This document shows positions 1,121 to 20,623 of a DNA stretch of 64,000 nucleotides, piece after piece. The number at the start of each line of letters is the position of its first letter. Position 1 is the first letter of the stretch. Position numbers and translations under genes: made by a program. Below the pieces are notes generated by a model that worked only from the letters and a program-made list of their open reading frames with translations, was not told the DNA's origin and did not search any database. Origin of the DNA: Saliphagus infecundisoli (GTDB lineage: Archaea > Halobacteriota > Halobacteria > Halobacteriales > Natrialbaceae); the NCBI RefSeq assembly GCF_020177375.1, contig NZ_JAIWHV010000018.1:1-64000 (forward strand), written 5' to 3'.

Positions 1121-2448
1121 ATGAAGTTCCTCTACCATCCAGACACCGTTCTTACGGCCTCTGACCTTGAAAGCGTAGCGCTTGACCTTCTCTCCGAGAT
1201 CCCGATCCCCGGAGTCGAAGGCTGCGGCTTCGACTCCGGGATCATCCGAGAGACACTGCTCCAAGCCGCTGTCGACCAGAAGTCCATCAAGGCAGTCACC
1301 GACAGCACTCTCGGAACGTATTCCGATGACTACACGCTTGCCCAACTTCACACGGTCCGGCCTGCTGCCCTCGAAACAATCGCGAACCGCCTTCTCTGCC
1401 AGCAAGCGGCGATGATCCTCGGCGCCGGGCCGAGGATCATCTGCCTCGACTTCGTCGATATCCATTATCACGGCTGTCCACACGCTGACGCTAGCGAACT
1501 CTGTCACACGAAGCCTCGCGATGGCACCTCCCAGTGCCATCGCTACCTCGCTGGGTTCGTTCTCTGTCGAGCCAAACCACTCGTCGTCGCGGTCACACCC
1601 GTCCGGAGTGATGAATTGAAGAGCGACGCGGTCGAGCGAGTGCTCGACCACGTCGCGGCCCTTCCGTTTGACGTCGCTGGCGTTCTCGCCGACCGTGGAT
1701 TCTACGACGGAACGTCGATCGAGCGACTGGATGCAGCCGCACCAGTCGCTCTCCCGATCATCCGCCGTGGAAAGCGAATGGCCGAGAAACTCGATACGAC
1801 GGTATCCTACTGGACGGAGTACGTGATGTACGAGGGGAGCGAGCGGGAACTGGAGTGATTAGCGCAATGGATGAATACGCATCACAGGCTCCAGCTCAAA
1901 GCGCTTCTCACCACGAGTGGATTTCCCGATTAAACAAGCCTCCGAGCGTCGCTGAGAACTAAATCGCCACGTTCCTTCTGAATATTCAAGTGTTGCAGTG
2001 ACCACTCCGCTTCCCGCTCGCGGTCTGTGTCTCTTACCAGCAGGGCAATCGAGGCAAACACGGCTTGCTCGTTCGGGCGTACGTGGCGTGCGATCTGACC
2101 GATTACACGCCGAAAGACGTCGAAGCTCTCTATCAAAAACGCTCGGCGATCGAGACAGCCTTTCGGACGATGCGAGAAGCGCGTGCACGAACCAGCACGA
2201 CTGATCCAGCCGTACGGTTGTTATTCGTCCTGGTGAGCTTCCTGTTGCGGAATCTCTGGGTGATCGTTCGATGGGGCGTGCTCGCCACGCCGCGGCGCGG
2301 CGGGCGAGCACTGCCGGTCTGGTTCCGATTCGAGGTGTTCCGAGAATGGATCGACCACGCTCTTGATGAAACCCTCCGCCGGAAGTGGGAAGCTCCAACC
2401 AACCGAAGCGGGATCCCGGCGACCTTCAGTCAGCTGGACGCGGGCTGA
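1121..2448 (+). pseudogene. ISH3-family transposase, interrupted by a 155-bp MITE
   Basis: The DDE transposase reads from 1121 to 1852, is broken by the insertion at 1853-2007, and continues from 2008 to the stop at 2446-2448. Removing the insertion restores one uninterrupted frame of 390 residues, the usual size for this family. Catalytic landmarks are LDFVDIHYHG, the ADRGFYDG segment before the break and SAIETAFRTM after it. The corresponding gene of the copy at 16763-20623 is uninterrupted at this site and shows what the target looked like. With the MITE, translation ends at the TGA at 1857-1859, inside the insertion. Confidence 0.85.
1853..2007. mobile_element. 155-bp miniature inverted-repeat element (MITE copy 1)
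   Basis: The element has imperfect terminal inverted repeats of about 27 bp: GAGTGATTAGCGCAATGG at one end and, read inward from the other, GAGTGGTCACTGCAACAC; both continue into a shared TGAATA. It differs at one base from the copy at 19199-19353, which lies in the opposite orientation. There is no coding capacity. The sequence on either side joins exactly into the uninterrupted transposase, so no target duplication was made. The insertion lies at the centre of an 11-bp perfect inverted repeat of the target (arms 1839-1849 and 2011-2021). Confidence 0.9.
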
Positions 2449-4867: not shown

Positions 4868-6269
4868 CAGTACCTCACAAAGCCGGTTAGTTGAGACGTC
4901 CGCTTGCTGAAGATGTGTCCAAACAACCACAACAAGCGGACGATGAAATCCACGAGGACCAGCTCCTTAATTTTCTGGTCAATGCTCTCACCGGTGCATT
5001 CACGCTAGACCTCGGTGAGAACGCAGAAATCGATCCAGAGGATATCTTCGAGGTCCTCGTCGGCGCTACCGCCGACGGGACCTCGATCTCCACGCTCTGC
5101 GAGAAGAGTGAAGACGCACCCTCTGGCAACGGCATTCTCCATCATCTCCGGACCAAGTTCGACCTCGAAACCGTCGAATCGACCGGGAACACGCTTCTCC
5201 AACAGGACGTTCTCGAAACCCTCCCTGAGCAGGTGGAGGTCGTCGCTGACCTCCACCTGCGACCCTACTACGGTGACGAAGACGAGACAGATGGCCTCTA
5301 CTACAACGAGGCCAAAGCAGGAACGACCGCATTCCACGCCTACGCCACACTCTACGCACGCGTGAACAACAAGCGATACACCTTGGCGGTGCGCCGTCTC
5401 ACCGACGGCGACACCGCCAGCGATGTTCTCGCTGAGTTTCTTGGACTGCTCGAGAAATTCGAATTCGACGTCAAAGCGGCCTATCTCGACAGTGGCTTCT
5501 ACGACGGAAAGTGTCTCACGTTGCTCCAAGCGCACAATTTCGCGTACATCGTCCCGATCATCAAGTGGGGCAGCAAGATCAAGACCGAACTCAGCCAGGG
5601 TTGGAGTCGTGAGATCTCTCACGATCTCACGACGTCCTATGGCGAGCACGAGTGGACCGTCGAATTCCCGGTCATGATCGACTGTACGTACAAGAACGGT
5701 CGATACGACGAACACGGGGTGGCGCGTCACGGCTACGCCGTCGACGCGCCGTTCATCGACGAGCCACGACAGGCTCGATCCCACTACAGCAAACGCTTCG
5801 GGATCGAAGCCAGCTACCGTCTCTCCGAGTCAACGCTGATCTCGACGACAACGCAAGATCCGACGAGACGGCTGTTGTTCGTCGTGTTGAGCCTGCTATT
5901 CCAAAACGTCTGGCGGTACCTGCACTGGAAATATGTGGCGACGCCCCGCCGGGGCGGGCGTCGCCTCTGGTGGTGGCCTTTCGAAGAGTTCGTCGACATG
6001 GTAATTAGGGCAGCGTGGACGGCCCTCGCAGCGCGTCGGGCCGTCCCCGCAAACCGGCCACCGGATGACCGATTCCACCGGTAACTGGTGACCGAGCCCG
6101 CCCTGCCGATCAGTGGCAACGCCGTCGCGTCGGCGGCTGACCGCCGCCGACTGCGACGCTTCCTCGTCTCCTGACGCCGGGATGGATCGTTGGAGCACAC
6201 GTCCAGCCCAGGTTCGTCGGTAACTCACGCTTCAGCGGCAGTGAGCTGAGGACGCTTTGTGAGGTACTG
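4868..6269 (+). mobile_element. Intact ISH3-family insertion sequence (copy C)
   Basis: The 1402-bp element has a 16-bp perfect terminal inverted repeat, CAGTACCTCACAAAGC at 4868 and its complement ending at 6269. It is flanked by the 5-bp duplication ACACT (4863-4867 and 6270-6274). It sits inside an older IS630 remnant. It carries one intact transposase and a hairpin near its right end (a GTCGGCGGC inverted repeat around 6130-6155). It looks potentially active. Confidence 0.88.
4915..6084 (+). CDS. ISH3-family transposase (intact)
   Basis: The 389-residue DDE transposase catalyses cut-and-paste of its own element. Landmarks are VADLHLRPYYGDEDE (first Asp), YLDSGFYDGK (second Asp), RFGIEASYR (Glu) and the C-terminal WRYLHWKYVATPRRGGR block seen in all ISH3-type copies of this window. 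I chose the GTG at 4915; a TTG at 4891 would add eight residues. It is a relative of the broken gene at 17242-19703 and a more distant one of the copies at 1121 and 16763. No lesions are seen. Confidence 0.88.
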   Translation: MSKQPQQADDEIHEDQLLNFLVNALTGAFTLDLGENAEIDPEDIFEVLVGATADGTSISTLCEKSEDAPSGNGILHHLRTKFDLETVESTGNTLLQQDVLETLPEQVEVVADLHLRPYYGDEDETDGLYYNEAKAGTTAFHAYATLYARVNNKRYTLAVRRLTDGDTASDVLAEFLGLLEKFEFDVKAAYLDSGFYDGKCLTLLQAHNFAYIVPIIKWGSKIKTELSQGWSREISHDLTTSYGEHEWTVEFPVMIDCTYKNGRYDEHGVARHGYAVDAPFIDEPRQARSHYSKRFGIEASYRLSESTLISTTTQDPTRRLLFVVLSLLFQNVWRYLHWKYVATPRRGGRRLWWWPFEEFVDMVIRAAWTALAARRAVPANRPPDDRFHR

Positions 6270-6530: not shown

Positions 6531-7330
6531 GAGTGGTCGGCGCTATGTTTGAATCTACAGCGAGCGTATAGGCAGTGATGAAGACAACTCGCCGGACGGA
6601 AGTTGTGGGGCATCTGTCGGAAGAACAGCTCGATGAGGCGATTGACGATGCCCAGAAGGCGGATGAGACGCGTCTCGTCCGGCGACTCTGTTTCATCAAG
6701 AACGTCTTTCTCGGCGACACCGACGAAATGGCCGCACGACGTGTTGGTGCCTCCCAACCAACCGGCGGACGCTAGCTCAAAGCATGGAACGAACGTGGGG
6801 TCGATGGACTACGTCCGCGCTTCGCGGGCGGACCGCCCGCGAAGCTCTCCGCTGATCAGCTTGAGGAGTTCTTCTCTCTCCTCAAAGAGGGCCAACCATG
6901 GACGCCACAGGAAATCGACGACCTTCTCTGGGACCGCTACGGCGTCACGTACGACCGGGCACATCTCACTCGAATTCTTCGTTCTGACGGCATGCAGTAC
7001 GCGAAACCACGACCGATGGATCCGCGACAATCACCCGATGCTGAAGCGGATTTTCGTGAGCGCCTGGGAGAGGCGCTCACGAAGGAGACTGATGAGGAGC
7101 CACTCGTTCTCGGCTTCTTCGACGCCTCGTGGCCACAGCCGTTCGAGAACTCTCAGCGGATGTGGTCGTACGATTGGACCGTCGAAATCGACAAACCGCT
7201 GGTCACGGTTCCCTGGAAAACGCTCGGCTTCTACGCACTTCTCGGCACAAGCACGCTTATTTTCCGAGAACGGACGACCAAGGAGAGTATCTGTGCGGCC
7301 TTAGAGGCGATTCGCGAGCAGAATCCGGTC
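6531..7330 (+). pseudogene. IS630-like transposase fragment with its left terminal repeat
   Basis: The fragment begins at 6531 with GAGTGGTCGGCGCTATG, followed by TGAATC, which closely matches the ends of the three miniature elements in this window. The transposase starts at 6578 (KTTRRTEVVGHLSEEQLDE), is broken by one in-frame TAG at 6773-6775 where relatives have Trp, and continues in the same frame through QPWTPQEIDDLLWDRYGV (HTH region) and LVLGFFDASWPQPF. It is cut at 7330 by the IS630 at 7333, so its catalytic C-terminus and right end are missing. It is the only candidate parent of the MITEs visible here. Confidence 0.72.
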
Positions 7331-7506
7331 TAATGACTAAGATAATTTTTGAAAGTCAAGGAATCTCTCACACCACTTCTTTGCGAAACTGATTCGCTGC
7401 GTTATTTTCTCGAACGTCTCTTGAACGAGCTCTTTGAACTCGTCTTCGTTCTCAACGACGATCGGTGCCATCGTCCACTTGAGAAAGTCCCAGACTTTCT
7501 CAATTG

Positions 7507-8446
7507 GGCTCTGTTGAATCACTAGACGGCGGCGGGATCGATCGCTAATTCAAAGGAGCTGAAGCGGGAGACTTCGGTTGCCTATGACCCAAATCTCCCG
7601 CTTCATCAGGGAGGTTGTGCCGGTTGCTCAAAACGTTACTGGCGATGGAGACGAATCCGCCGCCCCGGAAGGTGGCAGCGGATTCGCCGACTACGCACTT
7701 GTTTCTCTCCACTGTCTGCGGATTTACCTCGATGCGTCCTACCGGATGACGATCGACTTGTTGAAAGAGATGCCACAAATAACCGGGGAGATCGGCCGCG
7801 CTGAGGCCGATCTCCCCTCACCATCCACGTTGTGTAAAGCGTTCGACCGGATCAGTATGAGCGTCTGTCGAGTGTTGCTGCGCCAGTCGGCGCAGCTCCA
7901 CGACCCGTCCGAACACGGCGCGATCGACGCAACGTTCTATGAACGGTCAGCTGCGAGCCGCCACTACTGCCAGCGAATCAGCTACCGCGTTCAGAAGCTG
8001 AAGGTCACGAAACTCGTCGATACTGAGTCTCAAGCCGTCCTCGACGTTCACTGTTCGACGACCCGGGAAGGAAGCGATGCAGATCTCTGTGAGCAGATCG
8101 CCCGCCGGAACGCGGGCGATCTGCGGTCTCTGGCCGCCGATAAGGGCTACGACAAGCAGGCGCTCCGCACTGCACTCCGCGAACTCGGCATCAGACCGCT
8201 GATCAAGCACCGCATCTTCGCCCCATACGACCACGCACACAACGCCAGAATCGACGAACAACGCTACAATCAGCGCTCTATGACCGAGACGGTGAATTCA
8301 GCTGTCAAGCGCTCGCTCGGCTTCGCCGTGCGAGCGCGTTCCTGGTTCCGTGAGTTCCGCGAGATTGCGCTGATGTGTGTCGTCTATAACATCAAGCGAG
8401 CTGTGAAGCAGTGAATTCCACCGCCCTATGGCGATTCAACAGAGCC
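7507..8446 (+). mobile_element. IS5-family (ISH1 group) insertion sequence
   Basis: The 940-bp element has a 14-bp perfect inverted repeat, GGCTCTGTTGAATC at 7507 and its complement ending at 8446. It is flanked by the 8-bp duplication CTCAATTG (7499-7506 and 8447-8454), the duplication size known for the ISH1 group. It has inserted into the IS630 transposase D1. The transposase is intact, so this is probably the youngest layer here. Confidence 0.88.
7584..8414 (+). CDS. IS5-family (ISH1-type) transposase
   Basis: This is a 276-residue DDE transposase. GAIDATFYE supplies the first Asp, AADKGYDK the second, and RSMTETVNSAVKR the Glu. The helical N-terminus with YALVSLHCLRIYL is typical of haloarchaeal IS5 enzymes. 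The ATG at 7584 is preferred over the TTG at 7578. No frameshift or stop is present and both element ends are intact, so mobility is plausible. Confidence 0.88.
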   Translation: MTQISRFIREVVPVAQNVTGDGDESAAPEGGSGFADYALVSLHCLRIYLDASYRMTIDLLKEMPQITGEIGRAEADLPSPSTLCKAFDRISMSVCRVLLRQSAQLHDPSEHGAIDATFYERSAASRHYCQRISYRVQKLKVTKLVDTESQAVLDVHCSTTREGSDADLCEQIARRNAGDLRSLAADKGYDKQALRTALRELGIRPLIKHRIFAPYDHAHNARIDEQRYNQRSMTETVNSAVKRSLGFAVRARSWFREFREIALMCVVYNIKRAVKQ

Positions 8447-9423
8447 CTCAATTGGGTTGAGATGCGGCGATCCTGACGGGATGAAGATCAGGTTGATTCC
8501 CAGCTGATGCGCGCGCTTGCGCGTGTACTGACAGATATGTGCTCCATGTTTGTCCAAGACGAGCAGAATCCGCTTGCCGGGATTCTGCTCGCGCACCTCC
8601 TCCAAGACGTCACAGATCCGCTCCTTCTTTTCGTCTTCCTTGAACGTCACGTGACTGGCACCGTTCAGTGCGTAGAATCCAACCGCAGAGTCGTGCGTTT
8701 TCACTAACGGCCGTTCAATGTGCGGGTCGTCGACGTACCAGACACGGCGCGAATTATCGTACGGCTGTGGTTTCGACGCGTCGAAGAATCCAAGGACAGT
8801 GCCGCCATCAGTACAGACATCGTCGTCAACGACCCAGCCGTCTCCGTCTTCTCCCTCGCGTTTGTTGTGTGGCTGCTCGTCCTCGTCGAGCGCGTCATCG
8901 ACGCGCTCTTCGAGAATCTTATCTGGGTTCTCCGGCCGACTTGGTCGCTTTGGCCGTGGTTTCGCGTATGACAGACCTAGCTCTCGAAGGAACGTCCCGA
9001 GGTAATTCGGACTGTACTCGACGCCGAACTCTTCGGTGAGAAGATGCTGAATCTCCTGTGATTTCCAGGGCTGGCCCTCACGGAGCATCTCGACCAGCTC
9101 TTCTTGTTCGTCCTTGTCGAGTTTCGGGGGCCGGCCGCCCCCGAAACTCGGCATCAGTTCTTCGAGCCCACCTTCATTCCAGGCTTCTGCCCAGCGATCA
9201 CCGGTGGCCGCCGACCTGCCTTCCCGGTCGGCGGCCTCCGGAATCGAATCACCCTGATAGAGGTTTTTCAGGAACCCGAGACGCCGAAGTCGGTGATCGT
9301 CTTCAGCCTCACGGAGCAATTCGTCGATCTCCTCTTCAGACAGGTGGTGCTTGATCTCCTTGCGACGTGAGCGTTCCATGAACGACAGTCGGCATTAACT
9401 CACAAAAGTTTTCGTACTCATTA

Positions 9424-16687: not shown

Positions 16688-17807
16688 ATAGTCGGTAGTT
16701 CCCATCGAATCAGAACGTAGTCAGGACTGATAGGGTTAGATTCTCAGAGAGCGTCTAGATGGGTGCGTGTGAGATTCCTATACCATCCAGACACTGTTCT
16801 TACGGCCTCTGAGCTTGAAACGTTAGCGCTCGGTCTGCTCGCAGAGATACCGATCCCCGGAGTCGAAGACTGCCGCTTCGACTCCGGGATCATCCGAGAG
16901 ACACTCCTCCAAGCCGCTGTCGACCAGAAATCAATCAAAGCTGTCACCGATACTACTCGGGGAACGTACTCCGACGACTACACGCTGACACAGCTTCACA
17001 CGGTTCCGCCTGCTGAACTGGAAGCACTCGTCAATGACCTCTTCGTCGAGCAGACGGCGATGATCCTCGGCCCCGGCCCGAGGATCATCTGCCTCGACTT
17101 CGTCGATATCCATTACCACGGCTGTCCACACGCTGAACCTGGCGAACTCTGTCACACGAAGCCTCGCGATGGCACCTCCCAGTGCCATCGCTACCTCGCT
17201 GGATTCATCCTCAGTCGATCACATCGGGTTAGAGTAAGTGTGTGCTTGGAGAGTGCGTGCAACAAACCCAAGCAGACAACGAGGTAGAGGAAGAGCACCT
17301 GCTTAATTTTGTCGTCAACAGTCTCGGAGACGAGCTCCCGATTGATCTCGGTGAGAACGTAGAGGTCTCCGCTGATGAGTTATACGAGGTCCTCGCCGGC
17401 GCCAGCGCCGGCGGGACCTCGATCAATCACGTCTGCGAGACGACCGACGAGTCGCCCCACGCCAACACCGTCCGTGACCATCTCACCGATCAGTTCGACC
17501 TGGACGCTGTTGAGGCGGTCGGGAACACGCTCCTTCAACGAGATGCCCTCGAGACGCTTCCCGATCGACCGGTGGAGGTCGTCGCCGACCTCCACCTCGA
17601 TCCCTACTACGGTGACGAGGACGAGACGGAGGCGCTGTACTTCTCGCAGGCGAAACGAGGAACCACGGCGTTTCACGCCTACGTCACGCTCTACGCGCGG
17701 GTACGCAACAAGCGGTATACGCTGGCGGTCCGCCAGCTGGTCGCTGGCGAGACCACAAGCGAAGTCCTCGCGGAGTTTCTGACTCTGCTCGACGGCCTTG
17801 ACGCGTA

Positions 17808-18948
17808 ATGACTAAGATAATTTTTGAAAGTCAAGGAACTTCTCACACCACTTCTTTGCGAAGCTGATTCGTTGCGTTATTTTCTCGAACGTCTCTTGAA
17901 CGAGCTCTTTGAACTCGTCTTCGTTCTCAACGACGATCGGTGCCATTGTCCACTTGAGAAAGTCCCAGACTTTCTCGATAGGATTGAGATGCGGCGATCC
18001 TGACGGGATGAAAATCAGGTCGATTCCCAGTTGATGCGCGCGCTTGCGCGTATACTTACAGATATGTGCTCCGTGCTTGTCCAAGACCAGCAGAATCCGC
18101 TTGCCGGGATTCTGCTCGCGCACCTCCTCCAAGACGCCACAGATCCGCTCCTTCTTTTCGTCTTCCGTGAACGTCACGTGACTCTCACCGTTCAGTGCGT
18201 AGAATCCAACCGCAGAGTCGTGCGTTTTCACTAATGGCCGTTCAATGTGCGGGTCGTCGACGTACCAGACACGGCGTGAATTATCGTACGGCTGTGGTTT
18301 CGACGCGTCGAAGAATCCAAGGACAGTGCCGCCATCAGTACAGACATCGTCGTCAACGACCCAGCCGTCTCCGTCTTCTCCCTCGCGTTTGTTGTGTGGC
18401 TGCTCGTCCTCGTCGAGCGCGTCATCGACGCGCTCTTCGAGAATCTCATCTGGGTTCTCCGGCCGACTTGGTCGCTTTGGCCGTGGTTTCGCGTATGACA
18501 GACCGAGCTCCCGAAGGAACGTCCCGAGATAATTCGGACTGTACTCGACGCCGAACTCTTCGGTGAGAAGATGCTGAATCTCCTGCGATTTCCAGGGCTG
18601 GCCGTCACGGAGCATCTCCACCAGGTCTTCTTGTTCGTCTTCGTCGAGTTTCGGGGGCCGGCCGCCCCCGAAACTCGGCATCAGTTCTTCGAGGCCGCCT
18701 TCGTTCCAGGCTTCTGCCCAGCGATCACCCGTCGCCGCCGACCTGCCTTCACGGTCGGCGGCTTCCGGAATCGAATCACCCTGATAGAGGTTTTTCAGGA
18801 ACCCGAGACGCCGCAGTCTGTGATCGTCTTCAGCCTCACGCAGCAATTCGTCGATCTCCTCTTCAGACAGGTGGTGCTTGATCTCCTTGCGACGTGAGCG
18901 TTCCATGAACGACAGTCGGAATTAACTCACAAAAGTTTTCGTATTCAT
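17808..18948 (-). mobile_element. Intact IS630-family element D2 at the apex of an inverted repeat
   Basis: The 1141-bp element has ends ATGACTAAGATAATTTTT and, inward from the other side, ATGAATACGAAAACTTTT, each preceded outside by TA. The host sequence forms a perfect 12-bp inverted repeat, GACGGCCTTGAC (17791-17802) and GTCAAGGCCGTC (18954-18965), with the element exactly between GCG and CAG of the loop. It is the intact counterpart of D1 at 7333-9421. Confidence 0.88.
17812..18906 (-). CDS. IS630-family transposase (intact)
   Basis: This 364-residue DDE transposase is full length for the family. The N-terminal helix-turn-helix half includes EEIDELLREAEDDHRLRR and QPWKSQEIQHLLTEEFGVEY. 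The catalytic half has GFFDASKPQPYD (first Asp), LLVLDKHGAHI (second Asp) and SPHLNPIEKVWDFLK (Glu). The stop lies 4 bp from the element end, as in D1. It could mobilise D1 and other copies with the same ends; the MITEs have different ends and need the 6578-type enzyme. Confidence 0.9.
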   Translation of the reverse strand: MERSRRKEIKHHLSEEEIDELLREAEDDHRLRRLGFLKNLYQGDSIPEAADREGRSAATGDRWAEAWNEGGLEELMPSFGGGRPPKLDEDEQEDLVEMLRDGQPWKSQEIQHLLTEEFGVEYSPNYLGTFLRELGLSYAKPRPKRPSRPENPDEILEERVDDALDEDEQPHNKREGEDGDGWVVDDDVCTDGGTVLGFFDASKPQPYDNSRRVWYVDDPHIERPLVKTHDSAVGFYALNGESHVTFTEDEKKERICGVLEEVREQNPGKRILLVLDKHGAHICKYTRKRAHQLGIDLIFIPSGSPHLNPIEKVWDFLKWTMAPIVVENEDEFKELVQETFEKITQRISFAKKWCEKFLDFQKLS

Positions 18949-19198
18949 TACAGGTCAAGGCCGTCTACCTCGACCGCGGCTTCTACAACAGCGGCTGCCT
19001 CGAATTACTGTACGCACACAACTACGCCTTCATCATACCGATCGTCAAATGGGGTGAGACGATTCAAGACGAACTCAGCAGCGGCTGGAGCCGGGTGATC
19101 GAGCACGAACTCGCCGGGCGGGTGACGTTCCTTGTGTTCATCGACTGCGTCTACCAGCGAGGTCGCTACGATGAACACGGGGTGGCGCGTCACGGCTA

Positions 19199-19353
19199 GA
19201 GTGGTCACTGCAACACTTGAATATTCAGAAGGAACGTGGCGATCTAGTTCTCAGCGACGCTCGGAGGCTTGTTTAATCGGGAAATCCACTCGTGGTGAGA
19301 AGCGCTTTGAGCTGGAGCCTGTGATGCGTATTCATCCATTGCGCTAATCACTC
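19199..19353. mobile_element. 155-bp miniature element (MITE copy 2)
   Basis: This is the reverse complement of the copy at 1853-2007 with a single mismatch in 155 bp, so the two are recently related. It interrupts the copy-B transposase after CGGCTA. The right flank resumes ACGCCG, so at most one A is duplicated. Copy C gives the uninterrupted site at about 5725-5755, an inverted repeat GGCGCGTCACGGC, TAC, GCCG and so on, and the MITE sits in the TAC loop. Confidence 0.9.
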
Positions 19354-20623
19354 ACGCCGCTGACGCGCCGTTCATCGACACCCCACGAGAAGCCCGAGAA
19401 CACTACAGCAAGCGCTTCGGCATCGAATCAAGCTACCGGTTAGCCAAGCAGAGCCTCGCTCTGACCAGTTCTCGGGACGCTGGGCTTCGGCTCTTGCTGT
19501 TCGTCGTGAGTCTGTTGCTCCAGAACGTCTGGCGGTATCTCCACTGGAAGTACGTGGCGGCGCCCCGCCGCGGGGGGCGCCGCCTCTGGGACTGGCCGTT
19601 CACGGAGTTCTGTGAGATGGTGCTGCGCGCTGTCTGGACAGCACTTGGCGTTCGCAGGTCTGTTCCAGCGAATCAACCTCTGGACGACCGGTTCTTCCGG
19701 TAGTTGTCCCTGAATTGGGTCGGCGGTCGTGAGTGGAAACACTGTCGCGTCGGCGGCGATCCGCCGCCGACAGCGACTGTCCAGTGCTGATCACCGTCTC
19801 CGCCACTCCTCCGACACTATCCGAGCACGGATCAGACCGGTTCAGCATGTTCTCAATGCATTCGTGCGGTCACTGATGTGATCGACTGATCCTCTGTCGG
19901 GCGAAACCGCTCATCGTCGCGGTCACACCCGTCCGGAGTGACGAACCGAAGAGCGACGCGGTCGAGCGCCTGCTCGACCACGTCGCGGCCCTTCCATTTG
20001 AGATTGCTGCCCTCCTCGCCGACCGTGGGTTCTACGCCGGCGCGTCGATCGAGCGACTGGATGCAGCCGCATCAGTCGCTCTTCCAGTCATCCGCGGTGG
20101 GAAACAGATGGCTGAGAAACTCGATACGACGATCTCCTACTGGACGGAGTACGTGATGTACGAGGGGAGCGAGCGGGAACTGCGCTTCCCGCTCGCGGTC
20201 TGTGTCTCCTACCAACAGGGCAACCGGGGAAAACACGGCTTGCTCGTGCGGGCGTACGTGGCGTGCGATCTGGCTGATCGCACGCCGAAAGAAGTCGAAG
20301 CCCTCTACCAGAAACGCTCAGCGATCGAGACAGCCTTCCGAACGATGCGCGAAGCGCGTGCGCGGACAAGCACGACTGATCCAACCGTTCGGTTGTTGTT
20401 CGTTCTCGTGAGCTTCCTGCTGCGGAATCTGTGGCTCATCGTTCGGTGGGGCGTGCTCGCCACGCCGCGGCGCGGCGGGCGAGCACTGCCTGCTTGGTTT
20501 CGCTTCGAGGTGTTCCGTGAGTGGATTGATCACGTCCTTGACGACACGTTGGACCGGAAGTGGGAAGCACCGACAAACGGCGTCGGCATCCCGGCGACCT
20601 ACAGCCAGCTGGACGCGGGCTAA

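Follow-up and report, generated by a model that had tools for sequence, protein, structure and literature searches.

In the 64,000-nt stretch analysed here (the window; positions 1 to 64,000 of contig NZ_JAIWHV010000018.1 of Saliphagus infecundisoli, part of a 4.5-Mb draft haloarchaeal genome), a 155-bp miniature inverted-repeat transposable element (MITE) lies inside an ISH transposase gene, where it splits the 6-nt loop CTGCGC of an 11-bp inverted repeat (GCGAGCGGGAA and TTCCCGCTCGC) into CTG and CGC (Table 1). Our analysis of this element and its relatives suggests that the MITE targets hairpin tips, such as any short inverted repeat can form (most simply by extruding as a cruciform), and that it is moved in trans by a DD34E transposase of the IS630 family, a reading to which we give a probability of about 80%. 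Hairpin-apex insertion is a new target mode for IS630. As far as the compared sequences show, the inverted repeat pre-exists, the junction is centred on its dyad, the sequence of the arms is indifferent and the target duplication is related to loop length. The first-pass annotation of this DNA had placed the MITE at the exact apex of the inverted repeat, in the middle of the loop, which direct reading confirms, and had proposed targeting of a hairpin or cruciform, which is supported by the copies collected here, by the rebuilt empty sites and by duplication and symmetry scored against controls. Our results extend it to IS630 family membership, to autonomous elements and a second IS630 branch that follow the same rule, and to duplication that tracks loop length.

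Insertion sites in two IS630 branches

The target of the window MITE is also found uninterrupted. A homologous ISH transposase gene in the window carries the same inverted repeat, as had been annotated, and the target gene has a third copy, in another genome (L124; loci are cited by L numbers), which at 96% identity over 120 nt is likewise uninterrupted and reads exactly CTGCGC, in agreement with the earlier statement that removal of the MITE restores the transposase frame with nothing gained or lost. The apex position of the window MITE is not due to chance, because the element has 15 matches (copies or fragments) in its own genome, 12 of them full length at 97–100% identity, and most of the flanks are inverted repeats centred on the junction. 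Indeed, the flanks of the home-genome copies differ in sequence and nearly all form inverted repeats with the element at the apex, as in the examples GTGCGGTCGCct/tGCGACCGCAC, CCACGCCGTt/tACGGCGTGG, CCCCGGCGTg/aACGCCGGGG and CTGGAGTCGTGAGATCtcg/cacGATCTCACGACTCCAG, where the slash marks the junction.

We then compared two haloarchaeal IS630 branches with about 42% identity between them, namely the MITE's branch, with autonomous insertion sequence (IS) copies gathered from other haloarchaea and plasmids, and the branch of ISNpe13 and ISHti6 (the cousin branch), with multi-copy elements from complete genomes whose ends were set by end motifs. In both branches the elements likewise lie at hairpin apexes. 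Under a strict apex test (ungapped, with a stem that starts no more than 3 nt to either side of the junction and a score of 9 or more), 55 of the 96 sites passed (25 of 47 for the MITE's branch, 30 of 49 for the cousin branch). The pass rate was 0.3% for 60,000 positions drawn at random from the same loci and 0.4% when left and right flanks were mispaired, and when the test point was shifted by at least 2 nt only 0–1 sites remained. Note that identical flanks were removed, that copies within one genome are not fully independent, and that the random positions take in loci with these very hairpins, so that the background is, if anything, overstated. The arms gave no sequence consensus, the information content being no higher than 0.52 bits per position and mostly due to a G/C excess, and the target sites are GC-rich, not AT-rich. 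At cousin-branch sites, T is nearly absent (2%) from the second position outward of the junction, where purines are frequent, and G or C predominates at the next positions, where the stem usually closes.

Four hairpins were each entered independently by two different elements: the window hairpin was hit by the MITE (L001) and, in Halostagnicola, by a full-length IS (L081), and the other pairs are L075/L084, L157/L162 (in opposite orientations) and L166/L171. Some sites appear composite. The left half of the L002 site is like L149 and its right half is an IS605-type palindrome, and the right half of the L079 site is the palindrome GCTCGCC...GGCGAGC of an ISH gene. At both sites, as well as around the window copy at 7331–9423, the flanks correspond to halves of two hairpin targets, suggesting that recombination may have taken place between copies. 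As a separate observation, the L142 target is adjacent to tnpB, and ISHti6 adjoins a tnpB gene. An IS630 of Methanohalobium (37% identity) has TA ends and no hairpin at its site, and several cousin-branch copies are likewise without a hairpin; we therefore do not claim the hairpin rule for all IS630 elements.

Empty sites, loop length and terminal dinucleotides

Searches with joined flanks in 394 and 255 haloarchaeal genomes gave, by an automatic procedure, an alignable uninterrupted homologue for 38 sites, and the hairpin was present in all but two, of which L060 has a gapped stem and L027 was aligned to an element end, so that there is no empty site. The empty homologues come from the same or related genomes at 85–100% identity, with the hairpin intact (100% for L171 and L189; 99% for L056 and L070), and they show that the inverted repeats predate the insertions. 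Some transposition reactions are known to create flanking inverted duplications, and we considered whether the insertion itself, or a later rearrangement, had made the repeats without any choice of target. This explanation is scarcely credible and was rejected, since it is contradicted by the uninterrupted homologues, in which the hairpin already exists for at least 35 sites, several of them 99–100% identical. Wherever a hairpin site had an empty homologue, both arms had been retained, and loss of the stem-loop was not seen.

The 2–10 bp duplications, or sites without inverted repeats, that the first-pass annotation had named as the contrary outcome are not what most of the other copies displayed: the duplication was 0 in 22 of 35 hairpins and −1, +1 or +2 in the others. 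Loops of 4 nt were split two and two, with no duplication in 16 of 19 cases (two +1 and one −1), and 6-nt loops were split three and three, with no duplication in 4/4. Among the 3-nt loops (n = 10), five showed a 1-bp duplication, three have one base lost or shared, one shows none and one is scored +2 owing to an indel in the homologue arm, and the three 5-nt loops gave duplications of 0, 1 and 2. Judging from these alignments, insertion into loops of even length (4 or 6 nt) as a rule leaves no duplication. Thus, the statement that the MITE makes no target duplication stands for even loops and fails for the second MITE copy of the window, which entered a 3-nt loop and is flanked by a 1-bp duplication. 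Both the 4-nt loops without duplication and the 3-nt loops with 1 bp would be explained if each hairpin were cut 2 nt away from the 3′ side of its stem. In one case (L050 compared with its empty homologues L103, L111 and L115), the loop is inverted (GTTTCC versus GGAAAC) and the arms are the same, as if the centre of the palindrome had flipped.

Elements of the ISNpe13 branch start and end with TA, ordinarily taken for the IS630 target duplication; the equivalents in the MITE's branch are GA and TC. The possibility that the cousin-branch TA represents a target duplication was examined through searches with left flank, TA and right flank joined, and rejected, the empty sites being without TA. 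As an example, a 100% identical empty copy of the L171 site in the same genome reads GGGTGGCGCGA/ACGCGCCACCC, without TA, and the empty sites of L189, L183, L186, L178, L177, L149 and L196 are likewise without it. The empty sites show that the terminal dinucleotides (GA/TC or TA/TA) travel with the element, and annotating the terminal TA as a target duplication would be a mistake in these elements.

Transposase family and nature of the target

The left 27 bp of the MITE match the left end of an autonomous IS of about 1.1 kb in related genomes (93–96% identity), and its right end reads as a decayed transposase C-terminus (...FLPDIQVLQ-stop) followed by the terminal GTGAYCACTC, matching the transposase C-terminus and right end ...FLPDIQVLQ-stop-GTGATCACTC. 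The transposase remnant is limited to about the last 57 bp, the MITE has no transposase gene, and its ends are common with the autonomous IS (GAGTGRTY...RAYCACTC in this branch; further end sequences are TAGTGRTT and TAATGAGT). Right ends of the parental IS occur in the home genome only at contig edges (C8 and C14), as expected since a repeat breaks a draft assembly. The MITE is, on this comparison, an internal-deletion derivative of an IS630-family (Tc1/mariner-type) IS of about 1.1 kb, and it displays the same target behaviour as the autonomous IS, including in the hairpin shared by L001 and L081.

The IS630 transposase model (NCBIfam NF033545, Pfam DDE_3) matched ISNpe13 (E = 5.3e-86) and the C-terminal half of the MITE-branch transposase (E = 3.6e-36), and the DD34E triad (D182, D259 and E294, with 34 residues between the last two) is invariant in 19 proteins. 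TA insertion with a 2-bp TA duplication, which is characteristic of IS630, was not found in either branch, where the empty sites are without a central TA and the duplication is close to 0. These haloarchaeal elements are thus IS630 by transposase sequence and not by target rule. A scan of viral contigs found no relatives. In many copies of the MITE's branch (L049–L056, L060–L063, L066–L070 and others), the transposase is in two frames that part at a conserved GGNTTYTTTCGATGA, readable as a +1 frameshift (TTT C to TTC) immediately ahead of the first catalytic Asp, and a single transposase frame occurs in the cousin branch and in L077 and L081.

How such a transposase could use a hairpin is suggested by the geometry of the target. 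Mos1 imposes a bend of about 147 degrees on its target, with TA at the apex and its adenines flipped out (PMC5481204), and since mariner/Tc1 transposases must bend the target sharply and flip bases, a hairpin tip would present a ready-made geometry, which is the likely reason for its use. Because the tip is already bent and unpaired, the shift from TA to tip would need no new chemistry. An extruded cruciform would offer one hairpin tip per strand, and each 3′ end of the transposon would attack one of them (for loops of 3–4 nt, at 2 nt from the stem on its 3′ side). The stagger would then be 0 or 1 bp, where a TA duplication implies 2 bp.

Hairpins are used on single-stranded DNA by IS200/IS605 and integron systems, and the tips could likewise be met on single strands (lagging strand, transformation or conjugation) without a duplex cruciform, from which the sequence data alone do not separate them. 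We find this unlikely, given that a DDE element joins its ends to two complementary strands and a lone hairpin comes without the second strand, and that a stagger of 0 or 1 bp fits an attack on both tips; the two-stranded cruciform is preferred because a single-stranded hairpin offers only one strand. A symmetric transposase dimer might also recognise the two-fold symmetry of palindromic double-stranded DNA that stays unextruded. Mariner/Tc1 integration is indeed biased to palindromic, bendable, AT-rich sites (PMC5481204), the symmetry of a dimer suits a palindrome, and perfect palindromes put the insertion at the dyad either way. However, the arms have no common sequence and a protein cannot sense the self-complementarity of arbitrary B-DNA arms of 9–14 bp, the loops are not palindromic and the duplication tracks their length, and the sites are GC-rich; recognition of the duplex is thus rather improbable. 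Finally, a particular genomic feature that is incidentally palindromic (IS605-type ends or terminators) could be targeted through homology or a host factor. Palindromes at IS605-type ends (GACATCCTCC...) are among the sites (L006, L181 and halves of L002 and L068), and the SMR-A repeats of Haloquadratum behave in this manner (PMC3119063), but most sites are hairpins of unrelated sequence, many of them within unrelated transposase coding regions and without consensus, which leaves this explanation very little room.

Several points weigh against insertion at extruded hairpin tips. The strict test was failed by 41 of the 96 sites, some of which have bulged arms (L003, L060 and L071) or are recombinants of two hairpin sites (L002 and L079), the rest being unexplained. 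Some stems have only 4–5 bp beside the loop before a mismatch, and in the cousin branch L191, L195, L200 and L204 have lost 1 nt, unless one base is common to the target and the terminal T/A of the element. In addition, cruciform extrusion of these repeats in the cell is something that we infer from comparative evidence, and an AlphaFold2 model of the L081 transposase (mean pLDDT, the predicted local distance difference test score, of 60, with a poor catalytic domain) is too poor to reveal a target-binding feature.

Other IS630 copies, known systems and meaning

Besides the MITE under study, the window holds a second MITE copy and two cousin-branch elements (Table 1). The left junction of the cousin copy at 7331–9423 is a half-hairpin (GAGCAGAATCCGGtc) inside a transposase of the MITE's branch (6578–7330), and window positions 6578–9423 form a nest of three, in which an IS630 transposase fragment (80% identical to that of L081) contains the cousin IS630, itself containing the third IS.

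Table 1. Positions in the window of the MITE, its target hairpin and other IS630-related features
Feature	Positions	Strand	Basis or remark
MITE, 155 bp, GAGTG...CACTC, ends GAGTGATTAGCGC...GTGACCACTC	1853–2007	+	Direct reading, genome matches, end comparison
Target hairpin, left arm GCGAGCGGGAA (1839–1849) and left loop half CTG (1850–1852)	1839–1852	+	Empty homologue 20169–20196
Target hairpin, right loop half CGC (2008–2010) and right arm TTCCCGCTCGC (2011–2021)	2008–2021	+	Direct reading
Uninterrupted target hairpin GCGAGCGGGAA-CTGCGC-TTCCCGCTCGC in homologous ISH transposase gene	20169–20196	+	Direct reading
Second MITE copy, 99% identical, at apex of CGGC-TAC-GCCG (3-nt loop), 1-bp duplication A at 19198 and 19354	19199–19353	−	
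Empty homologue of the second copy's hairpin (CGGCTACGCCG)	5730–5740	+	D8 and D10 share base 5735
Full-length cousin-branch IS630 (TAATGA...TCATTA; transposase 17833–18897), at apex of GACGGCCTTGAC-gcg/cag-GTCAAGGCCGTC	17806–18950	−	
Second cousin-branch IS630 copy, with another IS inside it at about 7508–8446	7331–9423	−	

Compared with known systems, the haloarchaeal elements share with IS630/Tc1-mariner (ISY100, IS630, ISPlu) the transposase family (NF033545/DDE_3/DD34E), a length of about 1.1 kb, short terminal inverted repeats and MITE derivatives. ISY100 inserts at TA and duplicated it in 34 of 39 events (PMC2170065), ISPlu elements also insert at TA, which is duplicated (PMC6267812), and a 2017 paper lists the IS630 target as NTAN (PMC5678879). 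Unlike these textbook IS630 elements, which insert at TA (5′-NTAN) and duplicate it, those described here enter a hairpin apex with a duplication close to 0, and their TA or GA is borne by the element. As here, inverted repeats with unrelated sequences are the target of IS1272 (IS1182 family), which leaves no target-site duplication and is said to replace them (PMC5678879). However, its transposase belongs to another family (no IS1182 model matched our elements, for which the best NCBIfam match was IS630), and it reportedly replaces the stem-loop, whereas both arms are kept here with the element at the apex. ISs in repetitive extragenic palindromic (REP) sequences, as well as IS1111/IS110 elements with seekRNA or bridge RNA, also insert into palindromic sites (PMC1525189, PMC10969869, PMC11187229), but they rely on particular repeats or on a guide RNA with a DEDD enzyme, in contrast to the arbitrary sequences and DD34E transposase found here.

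The SMR-A repeats of Haloquadratum walsbyi are transposase-free, about 110 bp long, with terminal inverted repeats and no target duplication; they insert within near-terminal palindromes of IS605-type elements, and their source transposase was called "enigmatic" (PMC3119063). Our elements resemble them in the lack of target-site duplication and in insertion into palindromes, including those of IS605-type (L006 and L181). By analogy, we hypothesise that SMR-A and the MITE may be kin, and that an IS630 element could be the mobiliser of SMR-A, which we offer as a testable suggestion and not as a result.

No description of IS630 insertion at hairpins was found in the open-access papers searched (ISfinder and subscription reviews lying outside the search). 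IS630/Tc1-mariner is the standard case of a TA-specific and TA-duplicating family, and a large haloarchaeal branch of it, including ISNpe13 and ISHti6, instead reads the self-complementarity of the target. We tentatively put forward, as a broader view that is somewhat less likely than not, that a haloarchaeal branch of IS630/Tc1-mariner gave up TA for DNA shape, inserting at the tips of extruded cruciforms with a stagger set by the loop, and that it is the missing mobiliser of SMR-A. If confirmed, these elements would be a natural recorder of the inverted repeats that extrude in living cells, would provide a structure-guided DDE integrase for study alongside Mos1, and would bring a candidate answer to how transposase-free, palindrome-invading repeats move.
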